Below, piece after piece: positions 23,738 through 46,505 of a DNA stretch of 64,000 bases (the stretch's first letter is position 1; each line of letters begins with the position of its first letter). Below the pieces are notes generated by a model, which ran no database searches, was not told the origin of the DNA, and saw only the letters and a list, made by a program, of their open reading frames with translations. The position numbers and the translations under genes were made by a program. The DNA comes from Candidatus Thorarchaeota archaeon. Lineage in GTDB: Archaea; Asgardarchaeota; Thorarchaeia; Thorarchaeales; Thorarchaeaceae. Where the stretch lies: positions 1 to 64,000 of the forward strand of contig SHMX01000003.1 of assembly GCA_008080745.1 (NCBI GenBank). The letters run 5' to 3'.

Positions 23738-23748
23738 CTTATTTCACC

Positions 23749-25688: not shown

Positions 25689-25693
25689 TCATA

Positions 25694-26824: not shown

Positions 26825-26832
26825 GCTTCCTC

Positions 26833-28493: not shown

Positions 28494-28806
28494 CTGTAAT
28501 CTCCTCCTGTCTTACTGGTTGTCCAAGATCTACAGTTCCATATCTACGATGATACATTAGCATGAGGACCATTGCAAGAGCAGTATGTGCAGCTGCTATA
28601 GCTATGATAATGATAGTTAGACCTTGACCTGTGAAGGTGAAAGGAGAATTGTAGAGAGCAAGAGCTACCAATGCGATGGTCACTCCATTGCCAATTATTT
28701 CTGCCCCAATGAGTACTCTGATGAGATTTCTTTTCACCATCATCCCGTATACTCCAAGGCCAATTAGTATGAAAGCCAAGACCAAATACCACGAAAGTGG
28801 AATCAT
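28486..28806 (-). CDS. nuoK: Complex I subunit K
   Basis: A 106-residue, three-helix subunit. The conserved core is recognisable: a first helix WYLVLAFILIGLGVYGMMVKRNLIRVLIGAEIIGNGV with the buried glutamate, then IIIIAIAAAHTALAMVLMLM, with the helix-3 region where a second glutamate is usual occupied by A/H residues. It overlaps nuoJ by four bases and nuoC by eight. It belongs to the ion path between NuoH/A/J and the antiporter subunits. Confidence 0.9.
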   Translation of the reverse strand: MIPLSWYLVLAFILIGLGVYGMMVKRNLIRVLIGAEIIGNGVTIALVALALYNSPFTFTGQGLTIIIIAIAAAHTALAMVLMLMYHRRYGTVDLGQPVRQEEITGV

Positions 28807-29414: not shown

Positions 29415-29417
29415 TCT

Positions 29418-29858
29418 CTAAGCCTCCTCATGTGCCGAAGATGATTTACTCGATGCCCTAGCCTTCTGATACAGTTCTACCGTTTCAGAACCTGAAAGGT
29501 ATGTTTCGGGAAGTCTTTTGATAACATACCATATTCCCACCATAAAAATTCCAGTGAAAAGAATGAATTGCCAGACAGTAATTTCTGTGAATCGCAGAGA
29601 AGATGATGATAGTAACCATAGAAATGCTCCTAGAACATCAACGACAAGAAAGAGTATCGTATAGGTCAAATAGTTATAAGGAAAGGAAACTCGTGCCGGG
29701 CCAATGGGTTCCTCACCACACTCGTAAGTAGAGGTCTTTTCTGAATTCTGAAGCACATGTGGTCGTAATACCCAAGATGCAAAGAGCATTACAATTACAA
29801 GGACAGCGGCAAGCATAGCCCAGATTAGAACTGGGATGAAGTCGATGAAGAGCCTCAT
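29418..29858 (-). CDS. nuoA: Complex I subunit A
   Basis: First gene of the operon, about 146 residues from the ATG at 29858, which has GGTGG about seven bases upstream; an in-frame GTG at 29876 is weaker. The loop TYECGEEPIGPARVSFPYNYL matches the conserved NuoA loop YECGxxPxGxAR with its cysteine near the quinone tunnel. ILFLVVDVLGAFLWLL contains the conserved aspartate of the second helix. The operon promoter must lie in the 150-bp gap shared with the divergent gene at 30044. Confidence 0.9.
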   Translation of the reverse strand: MRLFIDFIPVLIWAMLAAVLVIVMLFASWVLRPHVLQNSEKTSTYECGEEPIGPARVSFPYNYLTYTILFLVVDVLGAFLWLLSSSSLRFTEITVWQFILFTGIFMVGIWYVIKRLPETYLSGSETVELYQKARASSKSSSAHEEA

Positions 29859-29989
29859 TTTTTCCACCAAGTGCACACATTTCTCATATGACCAAGACTA
29901 ATCACCGCATTCGCTGTGATTGAAATCGTTCAGTCACTGAAGGAGCAAGTATCGTAGTCTATCATAAAAACGTTCTGTCTTTTTCATCT

Positions 29990-30004: not shown

Positions 30005-30043
30005 GAACGTTGTTAGAAACAATCATTAACGTAGGTGTCTATT

Positions 30044-30397
30044 ATGGAAAAAGATAGCCATGTTGGAGCATTTCATTACATCGCACTGATTCTAGGAATC
30101 CTTACTCTCACAATATATGCATGGTGGATTTTTTCTGTAGGTAGCTGGGTGCTTAATTTTATGGAAACCCTGTTTATTGCAGCTGGAATTTCCATGATCC
30201 CTATCACACTCCTGATAGGCAAGTCAGATACTCGGTCTGGTCGAGTACTATTCACCATAATCTCTGCTGCTCTTGGAGGTGTTCACGGTTATCTGGTCTT
30301 GGCTTTCTTTCCAACTACTGGTGCAATGATGTTTCTCCTTTTTGGTTTCGGACTTCTAATGACTGCAGCTTCTATAACATGGATACAAAAGGGATAA
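30044..30397 (+). CDS. Small four-helix membrane protein
   Basis: About 117 residues from the ATG at 30044, chosen because AGGTG lies seven bases upstream; a GTG at 30035 is in frame. Four hydrophobic helices are separated by short loops, with a basic loop (GKSDTRSGR) between helices two and three. It is divergent from the complex I operon. I do not recognise the family, and nothing ties it to complex I beyond position. Confidence 0.6.
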   Translation: MEKDSHVGAFHYIALILGILTLTIYAWWIFSVGSWVLNFMETLFIAAGISMIPITLLIGKSDTRSGRVLFTIISAALGGVHGYLVLAFFPTTGAMMFLLFGFGLLMTAASITWIQKG

Positions 30398-30407
30398 GCT
30401 AAAAGTC

Positions 30408-31412
30408 CTAGCTATCATCTTCTAATGGTGAGAACTGCACTATTGCCCAAGTGATATCGGTTGAAATAACTGGAAGACCATCAATCCCAATATCAAAGAT
30501 CTCGCTTGAAACAGTTGGTTCTACCGACGAAACATCTTCAAACAGGATTTGAGTTTCAAGCAATGGTGAAGACATGGATAGTAATCGGTTCTTGAATCCG
30601 AATTCCATATTGTGTTCTATGAGAACATCTGCATTGGCATCTCCATTATCTGGAAAGAAAAATGTAAGAAAGTAAGCTACACCACCAAGACATCTTACCA
30701 ATTCATTGAGAAATTCTTCACTACTGGTTATATTGGTCAATCCCATATTGGTCGTAATGACCTCTACTGATTTTTCTTTGAAAGGCATCTTTCTAGCATC
30801 AAATGCAATAAGGCTTACTTTCTCATAGATACCGAAATGCTCCAATCTATCCTTATTTCTCTGAAGAATACTTGGACTGATATCACTCAAGATGACAGGA
30901 TTTTCCAATTCAGAGAATAATTCAGCGAATCCACCCATTCCAGATGCAATATCAATAATGACGCCTGTTTTATCAGAGAGTAATTTTTGTAGCTGTGTTT
31001 TCTTTTCTTGATATGCTTGAGTATAAGAACTAGTATATAGGTCCCTCACGGCTTCAGCTCTAATTTCTCTTGCAGTATCATAGTCTCCTCGCTCATCAAG
31101 AATCATTGAATGTAAGAGTTTGTCTGCGGGATTCAAATTATCCAAATCAGTTTGCATGAGTTTTCGTTCATATTCAGGATTGCTACGCAATGCCTTTGAT
31201 AGATTACTTTGCACAACTTTCCAAAAATCTTCATCATTTGATGCATCTAAAAGAAAAATAGCAATACCATTCTTTACAAAATAAGATTTATGACATGCGA
31301 TACAAGAAACCTCAGCATCAATAATCCGATGATCTGTTTCTTTTTGAATATCCCATGCTAAAGAATCATGACAGATAGGACAATAAAGCAAATTTTGAAT
31401 AGATTTTAGCAT
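30408..31412 (-). CDS. Methyltransferase with N-terminal Trm112-like zinc ribbon
   Basis: About 334 residues from the ATG at 31412, which removes an unlikely hydrophobic leader; the open frame extends to 31502. A ribbon (YCPICHDSL ... CIACHKSYFVKNGIAIFLL) resembles Trm112/UPF0434. A class I methyltransferase domain follows, with motif I VIIDIASGMGGFAELF, ILSDISPSIL, the post-I segment and FDARKMPFKEKSVEVITTNMGL. Similar architectures modify rRNA, tRNA or small molecules. The substrate is unknown. It converges with the preceding small gene, 10 bp apart. Confidence 0.75.
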   Translation of the reverse strand: MLKSIQNLLYCPICHDSLAWDIQKETDHRIIDAEVSCIACHKSYFVKNGIAIFLLDASNDEDFWKVVQSNLSKALRSNPEYERKLMQTDLDNLNPADKLLHSMILDERGDYDTAREIRAEAVRDLYTSSYTQAYQEKKTQLQKLLSDKTGVIIDIASGMGGFAELFSELENPVILSDISPSILQRNKDRLEHFGIYEKVSLIAFDARKMPFKEKSVEVITTNMGLTNITSSEEFLNELVRCLGGVAYFLTFFFPDNGDANADVLIEHNMEFGFKNRLLSMSSPLLETQILFEDVSSVEPTVSSEIFDIGIDGLPVISTDITWAIVQFSPLEDDS

Positions 31413-31564
31413 GAATATCAAAGATTGAAGATATTCGAAATCTAAAATAGATTTACAACTAAGCAAAATAAAGAAAATAGCCCATTCTATTTTAGAAAAC
31501 AATTCAGTAATTCACTCGTAAAGATTAAGAGGGCTCGTTAATAATTCTAATTTGAGATTTGAGA

Positions 31565-31801
31565 ATGAATGCCTCCAAACTAATGGCTATATTAACTGGA
31601 ATACTCGGATGTGTAATTCTAGCGATTAGCGGCTGGCTAATACTCTTTGGAATTCAATGGGCAATATGGAATGCACCATTATCAGGTCATCCTCCAACTG
31701 ATATTGCATGGTTAGTCAATTCTGCAGTACCGCTAGGTTTTTTTCTCTTAGGACTAGGTTTTATGATGATACTATGGAGTAAACCATTAAGTGTGCAATA
31801 A
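31565..31801 (+). CDS. Small two-helix membrane protein
   Basis: 78 residues from the ATG at 31565; an in-frame TTG lies two codons earlier. Helix one is LMAILTGILGCVILAISGWLILFG. After an exterior loop with His/Pro residues, helix two is VPLGFFLLGLGFMMILW. No family recognised. It is divergent from the methyltransferase gene. Confidence 0.5.
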   Translation: MNASKLMAILTGILGCVILAISGWLILFGIQWAIWNAPLSGHPPTDIAWLVNSAVPLGFFLLGLGFMMILWSKPLSVQ

Positions 31802-31929
31802 TCTCTGCAATCGGTTCTTATTTCATAAAAGAATGATATGATAGTGAAGAACCCAGATAGATAAAAAAGCAGAGGTGAATACTTTAAGATATTATTACCT
31901 CTAACAAAATTCCATCGAGAGAGTCATCT

Positions 31930-33771
31930 ATGAGTATGAGAGAAAAATTTCAGAAAGTCAGAAATGATAAGCTGTTCGATGAAATAAAAGAACATATGAT
32001 AATGGGCCAATTTAAAGACGCACTTGAGAAAATTGATCTTCTCGATTTACAGTACCATTCAGATGCAGAAAAGGCAAAACTAAGAATTAAAGCATGGGAG
32101 ATAATGTGCATCACCCGCCAGGGGAAATATCAGGAAGGTCTGCAACTTGCAGATGAGTTCCTCCAATCTTACAATGATGAAGAGCTATACAAAGAACCTA
32201 TTCTGGATATTATAATTGCAAAATCATACTCATTTAGTGCACTTGGTAAGATTGATGAAGGTTTAGAAATGTGTAGAAAGGCAGAAGAGATACTCAAGAA
32301 TCTCGACCTGACTACACGAGAGAATCGAGCTCGTCTGGCAAGTGTCTTGACTATTCAGGGATTGAATGCACTTCACCAAGGAGATCTCGACCTAGCAATA
32401 GAGATCTATTCACAAAGCTATCCAATATTGGATGAGCTGGGAAATAAAAAGAGCGCTGCTGCAGCACTGCATAATATTGGTAGCACATATAGAGTCATGG
32501 GATACCTTGACCGAGCTTTAGAATATGTCGAGATGTCTAGAGCAATATCTGAGGAAATAGGATATACTCCAAATCTGGCAGGTGCATACACAACAACCGG
32601 AATCATACTCTATCAAAAAGGACGCCTTAAAGAAGCTGCAGATAGTCTTGAAAAGAGTCTTGATATGTTCGGAGAGATTGGGCATAAGGTATACCTTGCG
32701 AGAGGATTATACTACGCAGTAATAATCGAGGTAGCTCAGAAAAATCTGGAACGTGCAGAAGAGTATCTTTTCCAAATGGCATCGATAAATGACGAGCTTG
32801 AGAGTCTACTCATCAGTCAACATTATCGAGTAGCTAAAGCTATCTGGCTTAAGGCAAAAGCAGATCCCGTATCACTCCAACAAGCACAAGAATTATTCGA
32901 TTGTGTTGTCGATGAAAAAATTACCTTCTTCGAAGTGACATTTCAATCGCTCCTTAGCCTTAGTGATCTTCTAATAGACCAAATGAAAAGATCCGAAAGT
33001 GAGAAAGATATAGCAATCATTAAGGAATATACTGAGATAGCACTTGAGTTAGCAACAAGTCAAGGTTCACACTGGCTTGAGGCGGAAACATATTGTTTAC
33101 AGGCACAGATTGCATTGGTTGAACTTGAGTATGAAGAAGCCAAGAAGCTTCTTACAAAAGCCCAATTGATTGCAGATGAAAGAGGTCTATATCAGCTTGC
33201 TAGACGAATCTCTAATGAATTCGATGAGCTACTTAGGAAGGAAGAGAGATGGACAGAGATAAGCAAAAAGGGTGCGACATTTTCTGAGAGAGTAGAGATA
33301 GCTCAGATAAATGAACGAGTAGAACGGATGGCAAAGATTCAGGAAGCTGTTCCTCTACAAGAATCTAAAGATCAGCCAATTCAATTCATGCTTCTCTCAG
33401 CACACGAAGGATATTGTATTGTTTCTAAAGAGTTTGAAACTACATTCAAAGTAGACGAGTCTCTTGTGAGTGGCTTTCTAAGTGCTATTACCAGTTTTAG
33501 CGACGAGGTTTTTTCGTTGCCTCTTGACAGAATCAAAGTTGGTGAGTTTATACTTCTGTTTAGAGCAATAGTACCATTCCTATTCTGCTATGTCTTCAAA
33601 GGAGAATCATATTCAGCGTTAAAAAAGGTTGAACAAATTATCGAATATATACAACAAGATGAAGACCTATGGAGTTCACTGGAAGACACAATAGATACTG
33701 GAAAACAGAATACTCTTGTAAATCAACAGATACAAAGAATGGTTACAGAAGTTTTTCAAATGACTGGTTAG
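31930..33771 (+). CDS. TPR protein with C-terminal longin/roadblock-like domain
   Basis: A 613-residue soluble protein. Residues about 30-440 form tandem tetratricopeptide repeats, for example AAALHNIGSTYRVMGYLDRALEY and AGAYTTTGIILYQKGRLKEAA. Residues 482-590 form a separate globular domain: a beta hairpin FMLLSAHEGYCIVSKEF, then LVSGFLSAITSFSDEVFS, then VPFLFCYVFKGESYSALKKV. I read this by eye as similar to roadblock/longin-type small sensory domains that are numerous in Asgard archaea, where they are thought to work with small GTPases. That assignment is an inference. No GTPase gene adjoins it. Confidence 0.75.
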   Translation: MSMREKFQKVRNDKLFDEIKEHMIMGQFKDALEKIDLLDLQYHSDAEKAKLRIKAWEIMCITRQGKYQEGLQLADEFLQSYNDEELYKEPILDIIIAKSYSFSALGKIDEGLEMCRKAEEILKNLDLTTRENRARLASVLTIQGLNALHQGDLDLAIEIYSQSYPILDELGNKKSAAAALHNIGSTYRVMGYLDRALEYVEMSRAISEEIGYTPNLAGAYTTTGIILYQKGRLKEAADSLEKSLDMFGEIGHKVYLARGLYYAVIIEVAQKNLERAEEYLFQMASINDELESLLISQHYRVAKAIWLKAKADPVSLQQAQELFDCVVDEKITFFEVTFQSLLSLSDLLIDQMKRSESEKDIAIIKEYTEIALELATSQGSHWLEAETYCLQAQIALVELEYEEAKKLLTKAQLIADERGLYQLARRISNEFDELLRKEERWTEISKKGATFSERVEIAQINERVERMAKIQEAVPLQESKDQPIQFMLLSAHEGYCIVSKEFETTFKVDESLVSGFLSAITSFSDEVFSLPLDRIKVGEFILLFRAIVPFLFCYVFKGESYSALKKVEQIIEYIQQDEDLWSSLEDTIDTGKQNTLVNQQIQRMVTEVFQMTG

Positions 33772-33857
33772 CTACCAATAAGAGAGGATGCATTAAGAAT
33801 AACTTCAATTAGTAACTTTAAAACGAAAATTTTACAACTGAGAAATAGGTTATTTTC

Positions 33858-34142
33858 ATGCAAAACAAATGTACAAGATGTGGTCAAGAGATTGATGCGC
33901 GAAAAGCTAAGTTTATGCAAAAATACCAATCAAGCGAAGGACTTGTTTGTTTAAAGTGTATAAATGAAAGTATTAGGGAAACAGAAATTGAATACCCAAT
34001 ATGCACAAAATGTGCAGAACCCATAGATCCATCCCAATTGCAAATCTTTGCTATTAGTAAGACCAAGGAAACCATTCCAAAGTTATGTGAAGGGTGCCAG
34101 AGCAAAGACCATCCTAAGTTACCACCAAAACGTTTACACTGA
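33858..34142 (+). CDS. Small treble-CxxC zinc-binding protein
   Basis: A 94-residue protein with four CxxC knuckles (CTRCG, CLKC, CTKCAEPID, CEGC), enough for two zinc sites arranged as two similar halves of about 45 residues. It resembles archaeal zinc-finger proteins with no assigned function. AGGT stands about nine bases before the ATG. It is convergent with the histidine kinase. Confidence 0.6.
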   Translation: MQNKCTRCGQEIDARKAKFMQKYQSSEGLVCLKCINESIRETEIEYPICTKCAEPIDPSQLQIFAISKTKETIPKLCEGCQSKDHPKLPPKRLH

Positions 34143-34188
34143 CTCGGAATATAAAATTTCAAAGATGTGACAATTTAGTAATCTTTGA

Positions 34189-36006
34189 TTATTCCGCTCT
34201 CGGGAGCCAAATTATGAACTCGGTACCTTTTGTATAATCTCCTTCAACACGATTGTTAACATCAATTGTACCACCATATTTCTGTACCATATGTTTGCAT
34301 AAGTGAAGATCTACACCACCATATCGACGGGAAATATCAAACAGAGCTTCTTTTCGTTGATCGGGTATGCCAATACCATTATCTGAGATGCTAATGCGAT
34401 AACCATCATTGAACTCAAAGACTTGAATCCATACACGTTTGGATTCAGAAACGTTATGCTTGATAGCATTCTCAATCAGCATTATGAAGAGTTGTTCCAA
34501 TAGTGCATCTCCTACAATATTAGCTCGAGTATAATGTCCTTCTATTTGGATAGAAACTTCACCATATTTTGATTGGATATGATTGATTGTATTAGCGAGG
34601 GCAATATCCAATTGTCGTATAGCAATAGGATTAGATGTCAAAGATTCTGTTAGAGTCATTTTCGTAAGGAGGTCTCTACATTCTGCGATAGCATTCTCAG
34701 ACTCAATGATCAAGTTATCATGCTGTTCTCCTGTAGTCTCACGGGTTATGAGGTTCATGCAGGCAATTATGACTTGAAACTTGTTCATTATATCGTGCCC
34801 AATCAAATCGAGATAGAGAACTGCACGGTCCTTTGATTCCTCTAGACTTCTAACCATCTTATTGAGACTAATTGATAATGTCTTTAGTTCGGTAGTACTA
34901 TATTCAGTAATCTCGTGGTCAAGAACACCTTGAGAGATAATTTGCGCATCCTCTGCAATCTTATGAATTGGTTTTGTTAGTCTAGATGTCCCGAAATATG
35001 TGATAAGTGAAGTAAAGAAGAAAGTGACAATTCCCAGAAGTATATGATATCCAATTAGACTTGTTAGTTGATTGCTGATGATGGTGGTAGTATAGACCAA
35101 TTCGATTACAAAATCAACCGATTCGGTGGGATAATCGCCATTTGTCAGACTCAGAAATATGTATTTTGTAAGAGTATTCGAGGTTATGTTGGAAACGGTT
35201 CGGTCTTGTTCTGTGTCACGGACATCAAATACAATTTCCAATAGAGAGTTCGAAGGATGAAAACTTGTATCTCCTAGAAGATCTCCAAAAATGGAAAAGA
35301 TACGTATTGATTCTAGAAATGAATTGCCAGAAACAAATTCATCTGCTGCATGTAGATAGCTTAATTCACTCGTGAGTTCAGAAAATTCATCTATCACTAA
35401 GCCCAATTCAAACACGTATTGTCGGTCGGGACTTGGCATATATGCGTAAATTCTAACATCCCCTGTCTGAATTTCAGGAGAAACCCGATCCAGAGTAAAA
35501 TTACCCTCAAGTCGAATTTGGGTAAGTTGTTCATAAAAGGAACATGAGAAATCACTAAAATTTAGTCCCAAATCTGGTGCATAAGTTGTGGAAATAATAA
35601 TACCGTCACAATCAATAATATACAAATCGTATGTCTTATTCAATATCTCATAGACCTTTGTGAGATTCATATCTTCAACATTACGACCAACGTCCTCGTA
35701 TTCAGAAATGAAATATTGAAAACCATCAAGCATATCTGATTCGTAATTTTTTCCGATGGTGTTTAATCCAATGTCTACCAAATTGAAAGTAGTTTCAATA
35801 TCTTGCTCTATTTGATTCTGCATGAGCTCATGACTACGCTCAAGATTGACCTTTGCAGTATTGTAATCAGAATAGGATATGAAACTAATAAGTGGAATAA
35901 TCAAAAGCAGAATAGCTAAAGTCAATTGAATTTTAAATGACCGTTTTTTAAGGAAGTCAATCACATTTGACAATTTATCTGCCTCAAATGAAATATTCTT
36001 GTCCAT
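34189..36006 (-). CDS. Membrane sensor histidine kinase
   Basis: A 605-residue protein. TM1 lies at about 25-45, an extracellular Cache-like sensing region at about 46-315, TM2 at about 316-338, and a HAMP-like linker (SRLTKPIHKIAEDAQIISQG) at 341-360. A coiled helix leads to a dimerisation helix with H404 in LYLDLIGHDIMNKFQVI, the predicted phospho-acceptor. The ATPase domain shows N513 (IENAIKHN), DNG at 542-544, GGVDLHLCKH and the G2-like KGTEFIIWLP. No response regulator is next to it, so it is an orphan. The ligand is unknown. Confidence 0.88.
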   Translation of the reverse strand: MDKNISFEADKLSNVIDFLKKRSFKIQLTLAILLLIIPLISFISYSDYNTAKVNLERSHELMQNQIEQDIETTFNLVDIGLNTIGKNYESDMLDGFQYFISEYEDVGRNVEDMNLTKVYEILNKTYDLYIIDCDGIIISTTYAPDLGLNFSDFSCSFYEQLTQIRLEGNFTLDRVSPEIQTGDVRIYAYMPSPDRQYVFELGLVIDEFSELTSELSYLHAADEFVSGNSFLESIRIFSIFGDLLGDTSFHPSNSLLEIVFDVRDTEQDRTVSNITSNTLTKYIFLSLTNGDYPTESVDFVIELVYTTTIISNQLTSLIGYHILLGIVTFFFTSLITYFGTSRLTKPIHKIAEDAQIISQGVLDHEITEYSTTELKTLSISLNKMVRSLEESKDRAVLYLDLIGHDIMNKFQVIIACMNLITRETTGEQHDNLIIESENAIAECRDLLTKMTLTESLTSNPIAIRQLDIALANTINHIQSKYGEVSIQIEGHYTRANIVGDALLEQLFIMLIENAIKHNVSESKRVWIQVFEFNDGYRISISDNGIGIPDQRKEALFDISRRYGGVDLHLCKHMVQKYGGTIDVNNRVEGDYTKGTEFIIWLPRAE

Positions 36007-36091: not shown

Positions 36092-36550
36092 TCAGTTTTC
36101 TAAGGTGGTTTGCGGGCTGTAATCTGATTCATCTACTTCAAGTGTGCCTAAAGAAGTACTCTCGTCCAACGAATGCATGACGGATAGTCCACCTGCTATA
36201 AAGAGTGCTGCTCCTGTGCCCCAAGAAGTTAGAAAGAGAGCGTCAGAAAATGTAGCAGAACCTTCAAGGATGGGCATAATTAAAGCAGTGATGAACATCA
36301 TTGTTACAATTACCACTGATACTGCCAACATGGTTGGTTTTATCCTACTTCTTTCAGGTTTCAGATAACCAACAAATGTAAAAATTAGAATTAATGGTGC
36401 AGGAAGCAACCAAGAAAGGAAAGACACTCTTGCTAATACGTATCCAGGATTTGCTAGTTCTAGATAGAGAAAGTTGAAAAAATACGCACTAAGCAATAAT
36501 ATGCCGAGCCAGAGAATGCAATATGGTTCACTGTCCTCACGTAGTTTCAT
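36092..36550 (-). CDS. Small membrane protein coupled to the GlcD-NuoB gene
   Basis: About 152 residues from the ATG at 36550. AGGTGAT overlaps the stop of the preceding gene four bases upstream, so translation is probably coupled to the fusion gene. Four helices (ILWLGILLLSAYFFNFLYLEL, FLSWLLPAPLILIFTFVGYL, MLAVSVVIVTMMFITALIM, FLTSWGTGAALFIAGGLSVM) and an acidic cytoplasmic tail are visible. No family recognised. Position suggests a membrane partner or assembly factor for the fusion protein, but this is inference. Confidence 0.65.
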   Translation of the reverse strand: MKLREDSEPYCILWLGILLLSAYFFNFLYLELANPGYVLARVSFLSWLLPAPLILIFTFVGYLKPERSRIKPTMLAVSVVIVTMMFITALIMPILEGSATFSDALFLTSWGTGAALFIAGGLSVMHSLDESTSLGTLEVDESDYSPQTTLEN

Positions 36551-36559
36551 TATCATCAC

Positions 36560-38500
36560 CTATGAAATAATCCCAAGAGCATCTTGGTTCTCATTCTTCA
36601 TCTGCCAGTGAGTGGTCCCAGCTCTGATCTTATTCTGGAGAATAAGATGAGCACGAATGAAATCTGATGGTTTTGGTGGACAACCGGGTAGATAGACATC
36701 CACAGGTACAACCTTATCCGGAGGAGTAACTAGAGAATATCCATCCCAGAACAAACCACCACTTGCAGCACATTGTCCGAAAGAGATAACGAATTTTGGT
36801 TCTGGCATCTGTTCGTAAATTCTTCTTAATCGGGGTGCCATTTTCTTAGTCAGACTTCCAGAAATCCAAAGTACATCAGTCTGACGTGGACCAAATAGAG
36901 GAAGCATTCCAAAGCGTTCCACATCCCAACGAGAAGCAACACCAGCTGCTCCATCAACCATACAACAACCAAGACCATATTGGATTGGCCATGGGCTATG
37001 GGCCCGACCCCAACGGAGAAGCCATTTAATAGGAGGTACATTTTGGAGCCATTTGAGAAGAATTGGTGCAATCCTACCAAAACCATTTCGAAGGAAATCA
37101 AAAGCTACCCACATGAAATATTTTCCAATGCGTAGGATAAATGGCAGCCAGTATGCGAAAATTTTTCCTGGATTTGAAATTTCCTTAGGATCATATTTCA
37201 GCTTCGCACTTCGAATCCGACTGAGTCTTTTCTTTCCAAAATACTCTGCGGCATAATTGGCAAACCATATTCCCGTTGAATGTGCATGTCCACCATGGCG
37301 TTGTGCAATTTTGAAAATGACAAAACTTTGAGACCATGATAACATATAGAACCGACGTCGCTCATCCTCAAGAAAATAGCCCATCATGGTAACTCCTGAT
37401 TTGGACGTGACATAGCCATCCACACCAGCCTTAGCCGATGCCTGTTCGAATTGAAAATCATCAAGAATAGCATGGAGATTTTCTAGAGGTGCAAAAGCCT
37501 GACCAACAACTAAAGTAGGTCCTGCTTTCTTTATCTTCATTGGATAGAAACGTTCTTCCCATTCGTGTTCAGCTACATGACGGTCATATATGGTACCTTT
37601 GTATTCCTCAACAACATTACGAACTATTCTAAGCCCAGCCTCTCGATCTTCATTACTTCCGTCGAATGCAAATAGCACTACGCAATGATGAACCGGATAT
37701 GGGAAAGGTGTATCTTTATCCCAGATTTTCTTCTTGAGATCAACATACTTGCTCTCTTTGAATTTAATAGTATGAGGTAGTGGTGCTTCTTCTATTATCT
37801 TCTCTATTGCCATGTTCATAAGATAATTTTCTGGGAAACTTGCAACGATTGGGTCGATGGGTGTAAGTTTCTTAGCTTTGATTCTTATCTTTGTGATGAT
37901 TCCAAGAATACCCTCTGTATCACAGAACAACTCACGTTCTTTGGTCTCGATGATTCTACCATTTGGGAGTACCACTTCAAACTCAAGAACACTGTCATTA
38001 ACTAATCCGTATTTCAACGAGCCAATACCATCTCCACCCTGAGCAACCCACCCACCAACAGTTGCTGAAAGACCTGATGAAGGGTAGCAACGAAGGTCCA
38101 AACCATGACGGTTAAGATGATGCTGAAGATGCGCCCAAGATATTCCTGGTTCGGTAATCACCCATTCTTCTTCCTCGTTTATCTCAAGAACACGATTCAT
38201 TTCTCGCATATCAACAATGATTCCGCCCTTACGAGGAATAGCTCCACCATAGCCAGATGTCCCAGCTCCACGGGGAACAAGGGGAACCTCCTCTTCGTTA
38301 GCAAATTTGTAAAGAGCCTTTACCTCTTCTGTAGTAACAGGCCTAACAAGAGCGTCAGGGTTGTTGTTCATCAGCCAACCAACCTGTTTAGGTAGAGACC
38401 CCACATCCTGGGAATGAACTATCAATTCGTGTTTAGCAGTGACCAATCGATGGTTGAATATCGCCTTGAGTTTCTCAAGCTGCTTTTCCTTCAATCCCAT
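36560..38500 (-). CDS. glcD-nuoB: Fusion of GlcD-type FAD oxidase and complex I subunit B
   Basis: A single 646-residue frame. Residues about 30-230 form a PCMH-type FAD-binding domain (LVPRGAGTSGYGGAIP, YPSSGLSATVGGWVAQGGDGIG, GILGIITKIRI). Residues about 240-455 form the FAD-oxidase C-terminal domain, ending YDPKEISNPGKIF. A basic linker (about 460-500) leads to a complete NuoB domain at 505-646. All four N2-cluster ligands are present: C512 and C513 (GLGCCMVD), C577 (GQCAASGG) and C607 (LPGCPPKP). No other nuoB is in the window, and the complex I operon lacks one. The FAD half resembles glycolate/lactate dehydrogenases and alkyl-DHAP synthases; its substrate is unknown. Divergent from the GlcF-like gene. 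Confidence 0.92.
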   Translation of the reverse strand: MGLKEKQLEKLKAIFNHRLVTAKHELIVHSQDVGSLPKQVGWLMNNNPDALVRPVTTEEVKALYKFANEEEVPLVPRGAGTSGYGGAIPRKGGIIVDMREMNRVLEINEEEEWVITEPGISWAHLQHHLNRHGLDLRCYPSSGLSATVGGWVAQGGDGIGSLKYGLVNDSVLEFEVVLPNGRIIETKERELFCDTEGILGIITKIRIKAKKLTPIDPIVASFPENYLMNMAIEKIIEEAPLPHTIKFKESKYVDLKKKIWDKDTPFPYPVHHCVVLFAFDGSNEDREAGLRIVRNVVEEYKGTIYDRHVAEHEWEERFYPMKIKKAGPTLVVGQAFAPLENLHAILDDFQFEQASAKAGVDGYVTSKSGVTMMGYFLEDERRRFYMLSWSQSFVIFKIAQRHGGHAHSTGIWFANYAAEYFGKKRLSRIRSAKLKYDPKEISNPGKIFAYWLPFILRIGKYFMWVAFDFLRNGFGRIAPILLKWLQNVPPIKWLLRWGRAHSPWPIQYGLGCCMVDGAAGVASRWDVERFGMLPLFGPRQTDVLWISGSLTKKMAPRLRRIYEQMPEPKFVISFGQCAASGGLFWDGYSLVTPPDKVVPVDVYLPGCPPKPSDFIRAHLILQNKIRAGTTHWQMKNENQDALGIIS

Positions 38501-38681
38501 TGCTAGACCTCTAGAAGATTTGGTTAGGAAACAACAGACTAATTCCGTACATAAAAAGTTAGCGAGTGATACAAAACGAACATGATAGTTATTTCCTCTT
38601 TCGAATACGTTAAAGATATTAGATACAATAGAAAAAAGAAAGATTATCTCCGCATTGTTAAAATGAATAGGAGTGAAACGA

Positions 38682-39905
38682 ATGGAATTTCCATCTCTAA
38701 AAGAACGTGGTCTAGATATTCACGCATTCACATGTGCCCAATGTAGCTTCTGCCAAGTTGGGCATGGAGCATGTCCCACCTACAAGGTGAAACGTGTAGA
38801 TAGCTATTCAGGAAAAGGAAAGATGCTGATAACTAGAGCTCTAGCTCAAAAAAGAATTAGTAAGGAAGAGGGTCTCGAAGGATTACGTGATGGAATATTT
38901 GGATGCACACTCTGTGGTGGATGTGAAGAAGTTTGCCAAGTAGATATTCCATTCATTCAAATATACCAGTTGATGCGATCAGACTTCAAGGATATGGGGA
39001 TGTGGCCCGAAGGTCTTGGTGATGCGAAAGCTATGCTCATGAAATCAAGAAATATTCAAGGCCAACCACAGATGGATCGAATTGAGGGATGGTCTTATTG
39101 GCATCCAGAGGAAGATTACCTACTTGATCGTGAAGGTGTAAAAAGTAAGACGGCAATTTTTTTGGGTTGTGCCTCATCCTTCAAAGCGGTACCAATTCAG
39201 GCTTCAATTGCAACAGCCATGATAATGGAGAAGATTGATGAAGAATTCACCATGCTTGGAGAAGAGGAATGGTGTTGTGGGGCCCCCCTCATAATGACAG
39301 GGGATTTCGAAGGAGCTAAAGAGTTTGCCCTTCATAATATTCGGAAATACAAAGAATTGGGAGTTGAGAGAATCGTCACTAATTGCCCCGGATGTTATAA
39401 GATGTGGGCTCATGAATACCATGAGTTTCTAGATATAGATCATGAGTTCGAAATAATATATGGTGCAGATTTCTTCATGCGACTGATTGACGAGGGAAAG
39501 ATGAACAATATCAGTAGCGATTACGAGGCCACCGTAACTTTTCATGATGGGTGCGATGCTGGACGAAATGCAGGATTCTATGAAGAACCTAGAAAAGTAC
39601 TTGAAAATCTCCCAGGGGTCACGTTTGAAGAGTTACCCCATAATAAAGCAAATTGTTATTGTTGCGGTTCGGGTGGAGTTCTGAGAGCTTTTGACAACGA
39701 ATTCGCACTTCAGATTAATGAGTTAAAAGTGGAAGATATTGAACAGACAAATACCGATATCGTAGTTTCCATGTGCCCATCATGTGTTGACTTTATGCAT
39801 GGTCAGCTACCTGTAGCCGGTTCCGAAAAGGCCTCGATGGATTTGGCTGTAATCATAGCAAAATCTCTTGGTCTTGAATGGGAGGGATTGGACGAAGTAT
39901 ATTAG
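38682..39905 (+). CDS. GlcF/HdrD-like iron-sulfur protein with two CCG domains
   Basis: 407 residues from the ATG at 38682, supported by AGGAG at 38669-38673; an in-frame GTG lies nine bases earlier. Two [4Fe-4S] sites come first: C18/C21/C24/C31 and C75/C78/C81/C85. Two full CCG motifs follow: C163-X34-C198C199-X35-C235xxC238 and C291-X35-C327C328-X36-C365xxC368. Both fit the spacing that binds the noncubane clusters of HdrB. Divergent neighbour of the FAD oxidase-NuoB gene, just as GlcF accompanies GlcD, so it probably forms an electron relay with it. Cytosolic; no membrane helix. Confidence 0.88.
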   Translation: MEFPSLKERGLDIHAFTCAQCSFCQVGHGACPTYKVKRVDSYSGKGKMLITRALAQKRISKEEGLEGLRDGIFGCTLCGGCEEVCQVDIPFIQIYQLMRSDFKDMGMWPEGLGDAKAMLMKSRNIQGQPQMDRIEGWSYWHPEEDYLLDREGVKSKTAIFLGCASSFKAVPIQASIATAMIMEKIDEEFTMLGEEEWCCGAPLIMTGDFEGAKEFALHNIRKYKELGVERIVTNCPGCYKMWAHEYHEFLDIDHEFEIIYGADFFMRLIDEGKMNNISSDYEATVTFHDGCDAGRNAGFYEEPRKVLENLPGVTFEELPHNKANCYCCGSGGVLRAFDNEFALQINELKVEDIEQTNTDIVVSMCPSCVDFMHGQLPVAGSEKASMDLAVIIAKSLGLEWEGLDEVY

Positions 39906-39906
39906 T

Positions 39907-41001
39907 TCAATCCATGAATAATTTAATGCTAAATAGTGGTCCAATGAAAATAGTCAGAAGAAGCGCAATCTCCCAGGGTAGCATAAGGCCCAGCATAAGA
40001 TAAGCAATACATAGTAATATGCCAGTAATCATGTGATTTTGAATGGTGCCTACATTAGCAGAAACAAGTTTTGGTATGGTATCAAAATTTGTAAGAGTCA
40101 CTATTGAGCATTTGATAGCAAGTGGAATCGTAATCAATGCGAGAAGAGTATGGAGATGTACATACCCTAGGAGCATTCCAATTATCAGAAAGATATAGGT
40201 AGCAAACATGATTAGACTGTATCCAATCGAGGCTTTTTTTCTGCCAAGTCTAACAACTAGAGTCTTCTTTCCAGCATCACGGTCAGCATCATGATCGGGA
40301 AATTCGTTGATGTAGAGAACCCCCATGATTAGAAAGGCGATGGGTAATGAAGCGATGATGGGTTCTATTAGAGCTTGGAGGAGAAGGAATGGAATTGATA
40401 GGAGGGGTTCAAGGAGGATACTTTGAACAGAATAAGGATATTGAACATAGTATGCACCGATTACCATTAACGTACCAAAATTCAGAGCAATAAAAAACTC
40501 ACCGAATCCGCGTGTCACGAGCTTGAAAGGAGGAGCGGTGTAGAAGAATCCAGAACCAACTCCAATGACTCCAAGCAGTATTATGAAAATACCCAATTGT
40601 AAGAACAGATAGATTCCAATCAGGGCTCCGATTACAAAAAAGACTAAAGAGCCAATTAATACCTCACGCGCTGAAAGAAACCCTCTTTGAATCATTCTAC
40701 TACCCCCTGTAAAGGGGCGTATGAATTCTTTGTTAATATCGTCTGATCCAGTCAGGTCTTCGCTATGATCAAAATAATCATTGGAAACATTAGCTCCTAT
40801 ATGAAGACAAATACCTGCAATTAATGTTAGGAGAAAATAGTCCAATCGAAACACCGAATGCAATCCCCAGGCAATAGCAGACCCTAGTAAAATTGGAATA
40901 GTAGATGCTGTAAGAAATGGAACTCTTAGCTCTATTAACCAAGCTCGGAATTTACCAGGATTCATTTTATCCTGAACTGGAATCGATTCGTCTTCGGTCA
41001 T
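39907..41001 (-). CDS. UbiA-family prenyltransferase, MenA-like
   Basis: About 364 residues from the ATG at 41001 (another ATG at 41010). The open frame runs to 41160 but would overlap the divergent gene. About eight to nine helices carry the two aspartate motifs: NDYFDHSEDLTGSDDINKE with RPFTGGSRM, and YINEFPDHDADRDAGKKTL. These are typical of 1,4-dihydroxy-2-naphthoate prenyltransferase-like UbiA proteins. It would attach a polyprenyl chain to an aromatic acceptor to make a quinone, or act in lipid synthesis. Next to a long-chain synthase and a chain reductase. Its stop is two bases from the GlcF-like stop. Confidence 0.85.
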   Translation of the reverse strand: MTEDESIPVQDKMNPGKFRAWLIELRVPFLTASTIPILLGSAIAWGLHSVFRLDYFLLTLIAGICLHIGANVSNDYFDHSEDLTGSDDINKEFIRPFTGGSRMIQRGFLSAREVLIGSLVFFVIGALIGIYLFLQLGIFIILLGVIGVGSGFFYTAPPFKLVTRGFGEFFIALNFGTLMVIGAYYVQYPYSVQSILLEPLLSIPFLLLQALIEPIIASLPIAFLIMGVLYINEFPDHDADRDAGKKTLVVRLGRKKASIGYSLIMFATYIFLIIGMLLGYVHLHTLLALITIPLAIKCSIVTLTNFDTIPKLVSANVGTIQNHMITGILLCIAYLMLGLMLPWEIALLLTIFIGPLFSIKLFMD

Positions 41002-41120
41002 AAGAAACATGCATCCAAATCCAATCCAATAGAAAAGATTTGCCCCAGAACGAATTTGGTCCAGAATCGCAAGTGCTAATAAGTTAATTTTTCTACAAGC
41101 ACTATCACGGAGGAGCTCTC

Positions 41121-42191
41121 TTGGAGGAAAAACCCAAAGACTTGATGAAAGGTATACCAATAACTGATGGTGAAAAACTGATCAGGGATAACCAAGAAGA
41201 GATTATACTAAAGGAGTCCTTCAAGAAACTCTATAGACATCCAGCATTAGTCGAAAGAGTTACTAGAATTGAAAAGAGCATTCAGGATTTTATCAGAAAT
41301 AATGATGGTCAACCACAAATTCTCTATGATGCGGCCAACCACTTGATTCAAGCAGGAGGTAAGAGAACGAGGTCGCTTCTCTCTTTGCTCGCCTGTGAAT
41401 CAGTGGGTGGCGATACGGAAAAAGCCCTACCTCTTACAATAGCAGCTGAATTATTGCAGACAGCTTCATTGATTCATGACGATATCATTGATGCGGGGAC
41501 AACTCGAAGAGGGGTCGAAACAGTCCACCAAAAATATGGCCATCATATAGCAATCTTAGCAGGAGACCTCCTAATTGCAAAGTCAATAGAAATGATTGGT
41601 AAACATGGCTCAACCGAGCTTCTACAGCACATTGGAAATGGCGGTGTCAGGATGTGTGAAGGAGAGGCAATCGATCTTGCCCTAAGTACAGATAAGCCAG
41701 ATGTATTCTCAAAAGATCAATATTTCAAAATGATTGAACTAAAAACCGTCGCATTTCTTAGTGAATCAGCAAGGCTAGGAGCCATGATGGGAGAGGGAAC
41801 AGAAGATCATGTGGAGGTTCTATCCGAGTTTGGAGAACATTTGGGATATGCATTCCAGATTCAAGATGATATGCTTGATATGAGAACAACCCATGAAGAG
41901 AGCGGCAAGGTTCCTCTTGCCGATTTAAAAAGTCGAAGATGTAATTTCCTCTTGGTCCATGCGTTAGAGGTTTCACACCAGAGCCATATAGACACCATCA
42001 ATCAAGCGATAAATGAAGGTAAATTCTTTGATGCCGCAGAATATATTTTAGAAACTGGTGCAGAACAGGTAGCAATGGATTTAGCTGAAGGTTATGTGAA
42101 AAAGGCAAAAGAAACTCTATTACAAAGTAACCTAAGAGGCATAGACTTGCTCAATGAATTTGCAGACTCTGTAATTCACCGAAACCGTTGA
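41121..42191 (+). CDS. Trans-polyprenyl diphosphate synthase
   Basis: A 356-residue all-helical synthase. The first aspartate motif is DDIID at 120-124, followed by the RR pair. The second is QIQDDMLD. GGKRTR (79-84) binds the diphosphate. The residues four and five before the first motif are Ser and Ala (TASLIHDD), small side chains that usually allow products longer than C20. The start is TTG, well supported by GGAGGAG at 41109-41115, five bases upstream. It converges closely with the reductase gene. It probably supplies the chain used by the UbiA enzyme. Confidence 0.88.
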   Translation: MEEKPKDLMKGIPITDGEKLIRDNQEEIILKESFKKLYRHPALVERVTRIEKSIQDFIRNNDGQPQILYDAANHLIQAGGKRTRSLLSLLACESVGGDTEKALPLTIAAELLQTASLIHDDIIDAGTTRRGVETVHQKYGHHIAILAGDLLIAKSIEMIGKHGSTELLQHIGNGGVRMCEGEAIDLALSTDKPDVFSKDQYFKMIELKTVAFLSESARLGAMMGEGTEDHVEVLSEFGEHLGYAFQIQDDMLDMRTTHEESGKVPLADLKSRRCNFLLVHALEVSHQSHIDTINQAINEGKFFDAAEYILETGAEQVAMDLAEGYVKKAKETLLQSNLRGIDLLNEFADSVIHRNR

Positions 42192-42199: not shown

Positions 42200-43393
42200 C
42201 TAATTAAGAATCCTCGTTAAAGGAATTAGAATTTTTGACCCAAGCTTAACAGCAAAAGGCAATCTACATCTAATCAATGATTCAAGCAGATATGGACCAG
42301 CAAGGCTCATACAGATATGTGTTACAATATCATTAGACAGTACTGAATCTGCGATATTCCTAACAGCAACAGCTGAGCTAAGTGTTTGTCCAATCTCTGA
42401 GGTCCACCTTAGGGCATAATCTGATAGCGGAGTGGATTTCGAAAAGTGATCTAGTATTGTTTCTGCTGCTATCTCTCCACCAATAATAGCCGTTGGAATT
42501 CCCCCACCATTTGACGCCATAACATGACTTGCCGCATCACCCACTAACAGAACATTGTTACTAAAGGTGCGGCCAACGGGACCTCCAATAGGTATTAGCG
42601 CAGAAACTCTTTGTTCAATTTCTCCACCTCTCATAAGAGGAGATATCAGAGGATTGTGTTTCATGAGATGCTGCAAAAGTACTCGCAAAGGAGTATTGAA
42701 CTTGTTGAAGTGTTGTCTTAGACCGAGTCCAAAATTTACTCTCCCATCTCCTTTAGGGATAATCCACGCATATCCACCAGGCGCTATTTGCTCACCAAAA
42801 TACATCTCGGTAACATCAGGATTACAATGAGTGTTCTTTACCACGAATTGAATAGAGTGACTAACAGCAGAAGAATCTAGGATGTTACCAATGGAACGGG
42901 ATATCATCGAATTGGGACCGTCTGCACCTACTACAACCCGCGCTGAAAGTGTTCGAGTGCTGTTTCCTTTTCTGATTTTCAGTTTGTTCGAAGAAGACCT
43001 TTTTGCAACACTAGAATCCAGATATAATTCAGCACCAGAATCAATGGCTTCGTCTACCAGATGTTTGTCATACAATTTGCGATCAATAATGTTTGCTTTG
43101 AATCTGAATCGAGTTCTATTACCAAAAGGAGAAACCAGATGTGTCCAATAAGTCTGGTTTGTTACAAATCGTGAAGGAATGCAAGCAATTCTCTTAGCTC
43201 TTGATGAATAAGGAAATAGATCCGCACATTCTGTAGATGTTGGAAAATATTCACCACATTGGATTGGAACCCCGATTGTCTTTCTTCTCTCTATAAGTGC
43301 TACATGTAAACCATTCTCAGCTAACATGTGAGCTACGGTACTTCCTGCAGGACCTGCACCGACAACAGCAACGTCGTAATCAGTGTCTCGCAT
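42200..43393 (-). CDS. Geranylgeranyl reductase-family flavoprotein
   Basis: A 397-residue FAD enzyme. The N-terminal dinucleotide motif is VAVVGAGPAGSTVAHMLAENG. PIQCGEYFP carries the family cysteine. VVGADGPNS, GGYAWIIPKGDGRVNFGLGL and VLLVGDAASHVMASNGGGI are classical. It hydrogenates isoprenoid double bonds in archaeal lipids or quinone side chains. With the adjacent UbiA and polyprenyl synthase it may make a saturated or partially saturated quinone. The C-terminal helices contain hydrophobic stretches consistent with membrane association. Confidence 0.85.
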   Translation of the reverse strand: MRDTDYDVAVVGAGPAGSTVAHMLAENGLHVALIERRKTIGVPIQCGEYFPTSTECADLFPYSSRAKRIACIPSRFVTNQTYWTHLVSPFGNRTRFRFKANIIDRKLYDKHLVDEAIDSGAELYLDSSVAKRSSSNKLKIRKGNSTRTLSARVVVGADGPNSMISRSIGNILDSSAVSHSIQFVVKNTHCNPDVTEMYFGEQIAPGGYAWIIPKGDGRVNFGLGLRQHFNKFNTPLRVLLQHLMKHNPLISPLMRGGEIEQRVSALIPIGGPVGRTFSNNVLLVGDAASHVMASNGGGIPTAIIGGEIAAETILDHFSKSTPLSDYALRWTSEIGQTLSSAVAVRNIADSVLSNDIVTHICMSLAGPYLLESLIRCRLPFAVKLGSKILIPLTRILN

Positions 43394-43904: not shown

Positions 43905-46505
43905 GTGAAAAAGCACACCCCTATGCAAAGACAATATTTGGAACTTAAGAAACAGTACAAAGACTGTATTCTTCTATTCAGACTAGGTGATTTCTATGAG
44001 ATGTTCAATGAAGATGCGAAGAAAGCTAGTGAAACGCTTGAAATCGTTCTTACCGCCAGGGGTGAAGGTATAGACAAATGGCCTATGTGTGGAGTTCCAT
44101 ATCATTCAATTGAAGGGTATATTGCAAAATTACTGGAAGCAGGATACACAGTTGCGATTGCAGAACAAGTTGAAGATGCCTCCAAAGCAAAGGGCCTAGT
44201 TAAACGAGAGGTTGTTCGAGTAATAACACCCGGTACCATTCTGGAGAGCTCAATGCTTGAAGATAGCTCTAATAATTATCTGGTTGCCGTGATAGAACAC
44301 GACCAACAAGTGGGTATTGCATCAGTGGATGTTTCAACGGGTGAATTTGTTACTACACAATTTCCGGGAACCCTACTGGGTGAGAAAACAATCAATGAAT
44401 TAGGAAGACTTGGTCCTGCTGAGTTGCTTCTCCCAGAATCAGCTATGGGGTCTCAAAGTGTTATGCAAGCTTTTGAACCACTGGAAACAAAGATAACCTT
44501 CCGAAGTGATCTGGATTTCTCAGCACGTCAATCTGAACAGCGATTGAAAGAACAGTTCAATGTGACAACACTGGATGGGTTTGGGCTAATAGAAAAAGAG
44601 GTAGCTATTGGAGCGGCTGGTGCGGTTCTAGCTTATTTGCATGACGTGTACAAAGAGAACGTAATCACTCTCACTGGTGTTAGGACATATTCTGTTGAAA
44701 GACACATGATTGTTGACAGGACTACTCAACGAAATTTAGAGCTTCTAAAGAACGCACGAGATGGATCGAAAAGAGGAACACTTCTGAGTGTTCTATCTAA
44801 GACTGTCACGCCTATGGGACGTAGGTTGCTAAAAAAATGGATACTTCAACCATTGATGGATATTGACGAAATAAATGAAAGACTGGATGCAGTGGAAGAG
44901 TTTGCAAGAAGTGCAATCGACCGACAAGAAACCATGAATAGTCTATCAAATCTTGGAGACCTTGAGAGAATAACAAGCAGAGTTGTTTTTGGGACTGGAG
45001 GAGCTCGAGACCTAGTCGCTCTTCGAAATGCTCTATCAAGAATCCCTAAAATTAAGAAAAAACTGAATTCATGCAAAGCAGATTTAGTCTACAAGTTATG
45101 CTCAGATATTGACCCATTAGAATTTTTACATGAAACATTGGAAAAAGCACTGATTGATGATCCACCTGTAAGTATCCGAGAAGGAGGGATGATTAAGGAA
45201 GGATTCAGTGAGGATTTGGACAAGCTGAAGCAGGGCATATCGGATGATAAAAAGTGGATTGCTTCATTGCAGGTTAGAGAACGAAGAAGAACTGGAATCA
45301 AATCACTCAAAGTTGGTTTCAACAAGGTCTTTGGATATTATATTGAAGTCACAAAAGCAAACATAGACAACGTTCCTGAGGAATATGAAAGAAAACAAAC
45401 CTTAACCAATGCAGAAAGATATATCATTCCCGAGCTCAAGGAAAAAGAAGCAAGTGTTCTGGCGGGAGAAGAAAAAATCAACCAACTTGAATATCGAATC
45501 TATGAAGACCTAAGAGCATTAGTAAAGGAGAGGGTTGACGCTCTGAGAAAAAATGCAGATGCCATTGCAAAGATTGATGTTTTGGCATCACTTGCAGAAG
45601 TGGCTGTTCTTAGGAAATATCACAGGCCAGAATTAACAAAAGGAAAAAGAATCAAAATTATTGATGGGCGACATCCTTCATTGGAGATGATGCTAGGGCC
45701 AAATGAGTTTGTACCAAATAGTCTTGAGATCGGCGATGGGGGAGCTACTTTACTCATCGTTACAGGGCCAAATATGGCTGGAAAATCAACCTATATGAGA
45801 CAGACTGCAATAATTGCACTACTAGCACAGATGGGAAGCTTTACTCCAGCAAAGGAAGCAGAAATCGGATTGGTTGATAGAATATTTACTAGAGTAGGTG
45901 CTTTTGATGATCTTACCGCTCGACAGAGTACATTCATGGTGGAAATGGTAGAAACAGCAAACATTCTGAACAATGCCACTGAAAGAAGTCTTGTCATTCT
46001 GGACGAGATAGGTCGAGGTACATCGACTTTCGATGGAATGGCACTCGCTTGGGCAGTAGCGGAACAGATAGTCCAAATAAAATGTCGAACCCTCTTTGCC
46101 ACACATTTTCATCAATTGACTGATATGGCATCATCCTATCATGGTGTGAAGAATGTACACACTTTAGCACGTGAAACGGGAAACACCATTGTGTTTCTTC
46201 ATAAGGTTGTGGAGGGAGGTACAGATAGAAGTTACGGAGTTCATGTCGCTTCATTAGCAGGTGTGCCAAACTCTGTTGTTCGACGTGCTCAACAACTTCT
46301 TATAAAATTAGAAAAAGAGAGTACCTTGGAACTTGGTAAAGGTATGGAGGATGCAGAAGAGGCAATTCAAACCAGTCTTGAGGCTCTAACAATTGATGAC
46401 CCAATTGTCGAACGAATTAAACACCTAGATCTTGACCGTATGACACCAGTTGATGCCTTGCTCAAACTTAAAGAAATGCAAGAAGAAGCTAAAAAACGAA
46501 GCTAG
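43905..46505 (+). CDS. mutS: DNA mismatch repair protein MutS
   Basis: An 866-residue full-length MutS1. The mismatch-reading F-x-E motif is F30-Y31-E32 in RLGDFYEMF. The connector, lever and clamp follow. The ATPase has Walker A GPNMAGKS (621-628), the FMVEMVETANIL segment, the Walker B LVILDEIGRGTSTFDG and the THFH loop. The C-terminal helix-turn-helix is present. The start is GTG, preceded by GGAGAG at 43894-43899. MutL lies 10 kb downstream on the same strand. MutS/MutL pairs in archaea are generally regarded as acquired from bacteria. Confidence 0.97.
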   Translation: MKKHTPMQRQYLELKKQYKDCILLFRLGDFYEMFNEDAKKASETLEIVLTARGEGIDKWPMCGVPYHSIEGYIAKLLEAGYTVAIAEQVEDASKAKGLVKREVVRVITPGTILESSMLEDSSNNYLVAVIEHDQQVGIASVDVSTGEFVTTQFPGTLLGEKTINELGRLGPAELLLPESAMGSQSVMQAFEPLETKITFRSDLDFSARQSEQRLKEQFNVTTLDGFGLIEKEVAIGAAGAVLAYLHDVYKENVITLTGVRTYSVERHMIVDRTTQRNLELLKNARDGSKRGTLLSVLSKTVTPMGRRLLKKWILQPLMDIDEINERLDAVEEFARSAIDRQETMNSLSNLGDLERITSRVVFGTGGARDLVALRNALSRIPKIKKKLNSCKADLVYKLCSDIDPLEFLHETLEKALIDDPPVSIREGGMIKEGFSEDLDKLKQGISDDKKWIASLQVRERRRTGIKSLKVGFNKVFGYYIEVTKANIDNVPEEYERKQTLTNAERYIIPELKEKEASVLAGEEKINQLEYRIYEDLRALVKERVDALRKNADAIAKIDVLASLAEVAVLRKYHRPELTKGKRIKIIDGRHPSLEMMLGPNEFVPNSLEIGDGGATLLIVTGPNMAGKSTYMRQTAIIALLAQMGSFTPAKEAEIGLVDRIFTRVGAFDDLTARQSTFMVEMVETANILNNATERSLVILDEIGRGTSTFDGMALAWAVAEQIVQIKCRTLFATHFHQLTDMASSYHGVKNVHTLARETGNTIVFLHKVVEGGTDRSYGVHVASLAGVPNSVVRRAQQLLIKLEKESTLELGKGMEDAEEAIQTSLEALTIDDPIVERIKHLDLDRMTPVDALLKLKEMQEEAKKRS

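Follow-up and report, generated by a model that had tools for sequence, protein, structure and literature searches.

The DNA analyzed here, a stretch of 64,000 nucleotides from a Candidatus Thorarchaeota archaeon (contig SHMX01000003.1, positions 1 to 64,000; in the following the window), carries on its minus strand at 36560–38500 a gene that joins a flavin domain to the complex I subunit NuoB. The gene consists of a single open frame of 646 amino acids (ATG at 38500, stop at 36560) encoding the flavin domain, a short amphipathic helix and a complete NuoB. The Pfam domains FAD_binding_4 (residues 48–186, 138.5 bits), FAD-oxidase_C (residues 231–447, 38.3 bits) and Oxidored_q6 (residues 523–617, 83.9 bits) were all identified above their curated cut-offs, and the protein passes two NCBIfam models for NuoB (NF005012: 180.2, cut-off 116; TIGR01957: 172.5, cut-off 142.7). 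For the flavin half (residues 1–447; 37160–38500) a fold of the vanillyl-alcohol oxidase/D-lactate dehydrogenase type is predicted. The linker (residues 448–500; 37001–37159) forms an amphipathic helix at approximately residues 450–471 followed by a stretch that is similar to the N-terminus of stand-alone NuoB, and the NuoB half starts at residue 490 (36560–37033). It carries the four cysteine ligands of the iron-sulfur cluster N2, i.e., the adjacent C512 and C513 as well as C577 and C607, which are invariant across 12 aligned fusions, and it resembles NuoB chains of chloroplasts, cyanobacteria and mitochondria (best E-value 1.6e-43). Pfam, NCBIfam and the alignment thereby confirm the first-pass annotation, which had read the locus as an uninterrupted frame joining a flavin domain to a complete NuoB with four N2 cysteines. 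An AlphaFold model of the fusion (mean predicted local distance difference test score 79.3, low around the linker and in parts of the NuoB half) was consulted on the fold of the flavin half and on the helices in the linker, not on the placement of the domains; the fold comparison covers residues 1–451.

The fusion is conserved among related archaea. A homologue search with the fusion protein yielded 870 homologues, and among the best 120 of these 46, the window protein included, contain both the flavin and the NuoB Pfam domains. The other 45 share 72–79% sequence identity with the window protein, 44 of them aligning over at least 98% of its length, and the organism names available for 14 of these two-domain proteins are Thorarchaeota in 13 cases and Hodarchaeota in one. 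It had been suggested earlier to look for the same fusion in relatives, and of the 47 genomes in the window's family 32 indeed contain it. The matches listed for 227 genomes of the phylum, among which full-length fusions would rank first, include none from outside the family. The matches cover at least 637 residues in 29 of the 32 genomes, and three are cut by contig ends. A set of 29 loci on named genome contigs, which overlaps with the phylum set, is titled Thorarchaeota in 25 cases, Lokiarchaeota in two and just archaeon in two; one of these loci (L135) encodes a flavin-only form. An assembly or frame error joining two genes was considered and rejected, and its probability is practically negligible: next to the 46 two-domain homologues, the 29 near-complete copies from different genomes are without internal stops, and one fusion copy is found on the single-contig chromosome record CP070761.1. 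Because of this conservation across many genomes, including a single-contig chromosome, the fusion is, as judged by comparison of the sequences, real and old and not an assembly artefact.

The remaining complex I genes of the window form a nuo operon on the minus strand (18501–29876) with the order A, J, K, C, D, H, I, M, L, M, N, which corresponds to the set of an 11-subunit complex minus B plus one extra M-like subunit. It comprises nuoA (29418–29876), nuoJ (28803–29414), nuoK (28486–28806), nuoC (27963–28493), nuoD (26833–27966), nuoH (25694–26824), nuoI (25257–25688), a gene for a NuoM-like antiporter subunit (23749–25281), nuoL (21542–23737), nuoM (20024–21541) and nuoN (18501–20027; NuoN is the best model, the score being below its cut-off). 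NuoI has two intact 4Fe-4S motifs and is a possible entry site for ferredoxin. The operon had been described as lacking both nuoB and an input module for reduced nicotinamide adenine dinucleotide (NADH). In agreement with this, nuoB is not present in the operon and a 51K/NuoF domain was not found in the genome, in which NuoE and NuoG were not searched for; an FrhB_FdhB_C domain of the FpoF type was not found in the genome, either. In all 14 loci of relatives the fusion gene is followed on one strand by the gene for a 155-residue membrane protein, nuoA and nuoJ onward through the fetched stretch. In 13 of these loci a distance of 1.0–3.2 kb separates nuoA from the fusion, which is the upstream gene and shares its strand; it amounts to approximately 8 kb in the remaining locus, from the one further genome that belongs to the same genus as the window. 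Judged by this gene order, the fusion heads the nuo operon in relatives. The distance of 7 kb to the complex I operon that had been noted before thus holds for the window but is confined to its genus, and it is a genus-level insertion according to the loci compared. Between the fusion and nuoA, the window encodes a methyltransferase, a tetratricopeptide repeat protein and a histidine kinase (30408–36006); among the loci seen, the fusion and nuoA are this far apart in this genus only.

The 155-residue predicted membrane protein is encoded directly downstream of the fusion (36092–36559, minus strand). This hydrophobic protein belongs to no Pfam or NCBIfam family and contains three residues, D9, Y13 and C14, that are invariant in 13 aligned sequences; it is a candidate for an extra subunit of the complex. 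A further small hydrophobic protein (30035–30397, plus strand) is encoded near nuoA in 13 of the 14 relatives' loci.

The distribution of the fusion follows that of complex I. A complex I-type NuoD is encoded in 32 of the 47 family genomes, in two of them as fragments. Both the fusion and this NuoD are present in 31 genomes and neither of them in 14; the two exceptions, one genome with the fusion and without NuoD (G187) and one with NuoD and without the fusion (G182), are fragmented assemblies. Judging from these patterns, the fusion co-occurs with complex I and is its NuoB in this family. A stand-alone Asgard NuoB was moreover used as query to search the 32 fusion genomes for any other NuoB. 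It recovers the fusion frame in 31 of them, the frame of the remaining one (G199) being cut by the contig end before the NuoB half. The other NuoB-like matches are nine short frames, all of which read CNGCD, the hydrogenase motif, and a contig-edge remainder of 52 residues in G190; a second complex I-type NuoB was not found among the matches in these genomes. When the motif pattern was applied to 30 NuoB-like loci, eight showed no motif; five of these belong to family genomes lacking complex I, and the other three are larger frames of 269–308 residues. The window's own genome contains four other Oxidored_q6 genes, all resembling small subunits of [NiFe] hydrogenases. The gene on C11 is of the group 4 hydrogenase type by its own motifs and those of its neighbors, including the nickel-ligand motifs, those on C10 and C5 are of the soluble [NiFe] hydrogenase type by their own and their neighbors' sequence motifs, and the one in the window (2446–3219) resembles a hydrogenase small subunit by model. 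A hidden stand-alone nuoB was rejected on these grounds, i.e., the CNGCD motif, the neighbors and the model. The first-pass annotation had named a second stand-alone nuoB next to other nuo genes as one result that would speak against its proposal, and no second one of the complex I type was found in the genome. In Thorarchaeia with the fusion, the sole complex I-type NuoB found is therefore part of a predicted flavoprotein.

Two hydrogenase-type gene clusters of this genome may be recorded here. Its second complex I-like cluster (L006:2303–6436) is, judged by sequence, a group 4 [NiFe] hydrogenase including a NuoA-like gene. The window itself contains at 1169–5144 a four-gene cluster similar to soluble [NiFe] sulfhydrogenases (Hyd/Shy alpha, beta, gamma and delta), all below the equivalog cut-offs.

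The flavin half shows the predicted fold of D-lactate dehydrogenase and keeps the motifs for binding of flavin adenine dinucleotide (FAD), and an EW-x-(E/D)-RF signature is present in 97 of the best 120 of the 870 relatives. The motif GDGN-x-H is absent from the window protein and occurs in none of these best 120 homologues, and the score with the GlcD equivalog model TIGR00387 is 144.7 compared to a cut-off of 567.9. The earlier suggestion of a 2-hydroxyacid as substrate is not borne out by these values, and a function as 2-hydroxyacid dehydrogenase was rejected; GDGN-x-H is the single motif on which this rejection is based, the region of the second motif (GEHG) being ambiguous in the alignments. 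Divergently to the fusion, the plus strand encodes an HdrD-like protein (38673–39905) with a 4Fe-4S dicluster part and two complete CCG motifs. Its scores are 60.9 with TIGR03288 (cut-off 345.15) and 156.2 with the TfrB model (cut-off 385), and no HdrE or HdrA gene was recognized adjoining it. Orthologues with identities of 62% or more occur in 31 of the 32 genomes with the fusion; they share a contig with it in 29 and lie within 1 kb of it in 22. Both CCG motifs are intact in all 14 orthologues examined, one of which is from a genome without the fusion (G216). In two named bacterial relatives of the flavin half, P0087 and P0084 (903 and 1007 amino acids), flavin, iron-sulfur and CCG domains are combined in one protein, which suggests that electron transfer from flavin to CCG protein is the ancestral wiring.

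According to a review, the quinone head group is bound in complex I by two residues of NDUFS2/NuoD, a tyrosine that is strictly conserved and a histidine in a loop (PMC8119997). In an alignment with cyanobacterial NdhH, the window NuoD retains the loop histidine (in an AHG motif), and the tyrosine is replaced by methionine in all 13 Thorarchaeal loci. Among 61 NuoD relatives from the database with at least 72% identity, 59 have methionine or leucine and two have no residue at this position. The tyrosine is kept in the NuoD proteins of the Asgard families f7, f8, f9 and f24; in this family comparison, one sequence (L169) is without a residue at the tyrosine position. Furthermore, the window NuoD lacks the two CxxC pairs of nickel ligands, which are present in the other complex of the same genome on C11. 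Next to the fusion and its HdrD-like partner, genes are located for a UbiA prenyltransferase (39907–41160, minus strand; closest to MenA models and below their cut-offs), a polyprenyl diphosphate synthase (41121–42191, plus strand) and a protein of the geranylgeranyl reductase family (42200–43393, minus strand). Of the routes to menaquinone, neither an MqnA/D nor a MenD match was found in the genome, other genes of the two routes not having been searched for.

The flavin and HdrD-like genes are also found near complex I genes in genomes with a separate nuoB. In two genomes of family f27 (G177 and G178) nuoA-B-C-D-H form an ordinary run, the contig of G178 ending inside nuoH, and another contig carries nuoL, nuoM, nuoN, two small frames, a gene for a 156-residue protein, a flavin gene and an HdrD-like gene (approximately 36% and 33–35% identity to the window proteins, respectively), followed by genes for a desaturase-like flavoprotein (below all cut-offs), UbiA, the reductase and the polyprenyl synthase. 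This arrangement is an apparent pre-fusion state. In G001 (family f2; L053) flavin and HdrD-like genes of other paralogue groups are located near nuoN, nuoK, nuoJ and nuoA and a separate nuoB. From the arrangements in these three genomes, the flavin/HdrD-like module was associated with genes of complex I either prior to the fusion or independently of it. Three other f27/f28 genomes, G175, G176 and G179, yielded no flavin gene at their nuo loci; G175 and G176 only have a 635-residue CCG protein there, upstream of ATPase and nuo genes, and the short nuo locus of G179 has no CCG/HdrD-like gene, either. G216 lost, or never had, complex I. Its FAD-only protein (P0050) ends in a stretch similar to the NuoB N-terminus, a short match that suggests derivation by loss from a fusion. 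A MutS tree, consulted on whether fusion, loss or truncation came first, leaves 10 of its 17 inner branches open.

Several more flavin/HdrD-like pairs cluster with a desaturase-like flavoprotein at L139:3102–17629 and at L140, the latter with additional UbiA and polyprenyl synthase genes, and represent a large uncharacterized redox system of Thorarchaeia. Two flavin proteins of such clusters that were examined have hydrophobic C-terminal helices. In the window, MutS and MutL are encoded at 43905–46505 and 56600–58396, approximately 10 kb apart, and an open frame of 2095 amino acids without a Pfam match extends over 5863–12150.

How might such a protein work? Tentatively, and as a serious possibility that falls short of being probable, we suggest that the flavin half and the HdrD-like partner act as an integral arm for electron exchange in a predicted ion pump of 11 subunits; the search of its genome for an input domain of the NuoF or FpoF type was negative. 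Reduced ferredoxin would donate electrons to the two clusters of NuoI, from which they would pass to N2 in the NuoB half, with ion pumping coupled at that step. The electrons would leave via the HdrD-like partner and then the tethered flavin, reaching an acceptor directly or through a bound lipid carrier, and the overall reaction may also run in the opposite direction. The linker helix, which runs on into the N-terminus of NuoB, would keep the exchange arm on the membrane surface, where the peripheral arm has its base. It is possible, if doubtful, that Thorarchaeal complex I is no longer a quinone reductase and works as a ferredoxin-driven ion pump whose covalent HdrD-flavin arm passes the electrons on to a small molecule or a disulfide, or in reverse makes reduced ferredoxin. 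Several observations weigh against the proposed exchange arm. The tyrosine is also absent in seven of seven NuoD proteins of 47–50% identity, and it is replaced by leucine in families f27 and f28, in which NuoB is separate, by valine in f4 and f21 and by phenylalanine in f23; therefore, by these alignments, its loss is not tied to the fusion. The loop histidine and NuoH are retained, and together with the UbiA, polyprenyl synthase and reductase genes adjoining the fusion this makes a lipid carrier still likely, and some prenylated carrier may be made. Known flavin/CCG pairs mostly act as dehydrogenases, which favors the input direction. Moreover, no flavin or HdrD-like gene was found near nuoB in 13 loci of f7, f8, f9 and f24 (BLAST, stretches of 7–20 kb), and G216, which has no complex I, retains both the HdrD-like gene and a flavin protein that stops shortly past the linker, suggesting that the module can probably work alone.

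If the direction is reversed, the earlier idea can be kept in an amended form: an organic donor reduces the flavin, and electrons pass directly or via the HdrD-like partner to N2 and then to a lipid carrier, driving pumping. This is rather unlikely in view of the missing GDGN-x-H motif, the score far below the GlcD cut-off and the lost quinone-site tyrosine, and no donor is known. Alternatively, the flavin/HdrD-like pair might be an independent membrane enzyme that exchanges electrons with the lipid carrier only, its fusion to NuoB positioning it at the carrier tunnel and fixing the stoichiometry, similar to a covalent supercomplex. The retention of the pair in G216 without complex I fits this, as do the amphipathic linker of the fusion and the hydrophobic C-terminal helices that the related flavin proteins P0055 and P0109 have of their own. 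It leaves the loss of the tyrosine and the absence of any other input module found unexplained, however, and we regard it as unlikely. That the flavin half is catalytically dead and now serves complex I in its structure or assembly would agree with the absence of the canonical catalytic motif, but it is very improbable given that the FAD-binding motifs are kept, that most of the best relatives share the EW-x-(E/D)-RF signature and that all except one of the fusion genomes retain the partner gene.

The Asgard archaea, of which Thorarchaeia are a part, are the closest archaeal relatives of eukaryotes, and the energy conservation of Thorarchaeia is unsettled. If the fused arm transfers electrons, complex I would here be wired to substrates without NADH or coenzyme F420 and perhaps without quinone, and a concrete enzyme would be at hand that bears on the evolution of complex I from ancestors similar to hydrogenases and to the sulfane reductase MBS. 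If the ferredoxin pump suggested above is true, it would represent a new class of respiratory enzymes built from complex I, with related separate-subunit forms in other Asgard archaea. For annotation, the names of the homologue records seen (NuoB, FAD-binding protein or hypothetical protein) are a warning, as they hide the link between flavin domain and NuoB.

The fusion protein is a variant of complex I for which no description was found in the open-access literature searched, subscription papers and supplementary files being outside the scope. It shares with the 11-subunit complex I of the Nuo/Fpo type without NuoEFG the subunits A, J, K, C, D, H, I, L, M and N, a NuoB domain with the tandem-cysteine N2 motif and the lack of a NuoF found, and differs in that NuoB is located behind a flavin domain, that no FpoF-type domain was found and that the quinone-site tyrosine is methionine. 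The missing NuoF sets it apart from the 14-subunit NADH dehydrogenase, the missing FrhB_FdhB_C domain from the F420H2 dehydrogenase (Fpo/Fqo), and the absence of the nickel-ligand CxxC pairs from NuoD from group 4 [NiFe] hydrogenases. GlcD is partnered with the CCG iron-sulfur protein GlcF. The flavin half is similar to GlcD, D-lactate dehydrogenase and LctD in its predicted fold, its FAD-binding domain and its CCG iron-sulfur partner, whereas it lacks GDGN-x-H, scores below the GlcD equivalog cut-off and is fused to NuoB. Likewise, the partner resembles HdrD, TfrB and GlcF in having a dicluster part and both CCG motifs complete, yet it reaches the equivalog cut-off of none of the listed models and no HdrE or HdrA was recognized adjoining it. 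The closest solved structure to the window NuoD by E-value is that of MBS, whose residue at the tyrosine position is not tyrosine, either. The Pyrococcus enzyme is complex I-like and ferredoxin-fed, two of its four [NiFe] cysteines are still present, and the available part of its description does not mention a flavin arm (PMC7684303); in contrast to MBS, the NuoB half here has the adjacent-cysteine motif of complex I. Finally, NuoB is fused in other archaea, too, e.g., in FqoBC of Archaeoglobus, and a survey of archaeal fusions reports, in its available part, B-C and B-C-D as the only fusions of complex I (PMC11237513). These fusions join complex I subunits to each other, whereas in Thorarchaeia NuoB is joined to the domain of a flavoenzyme.
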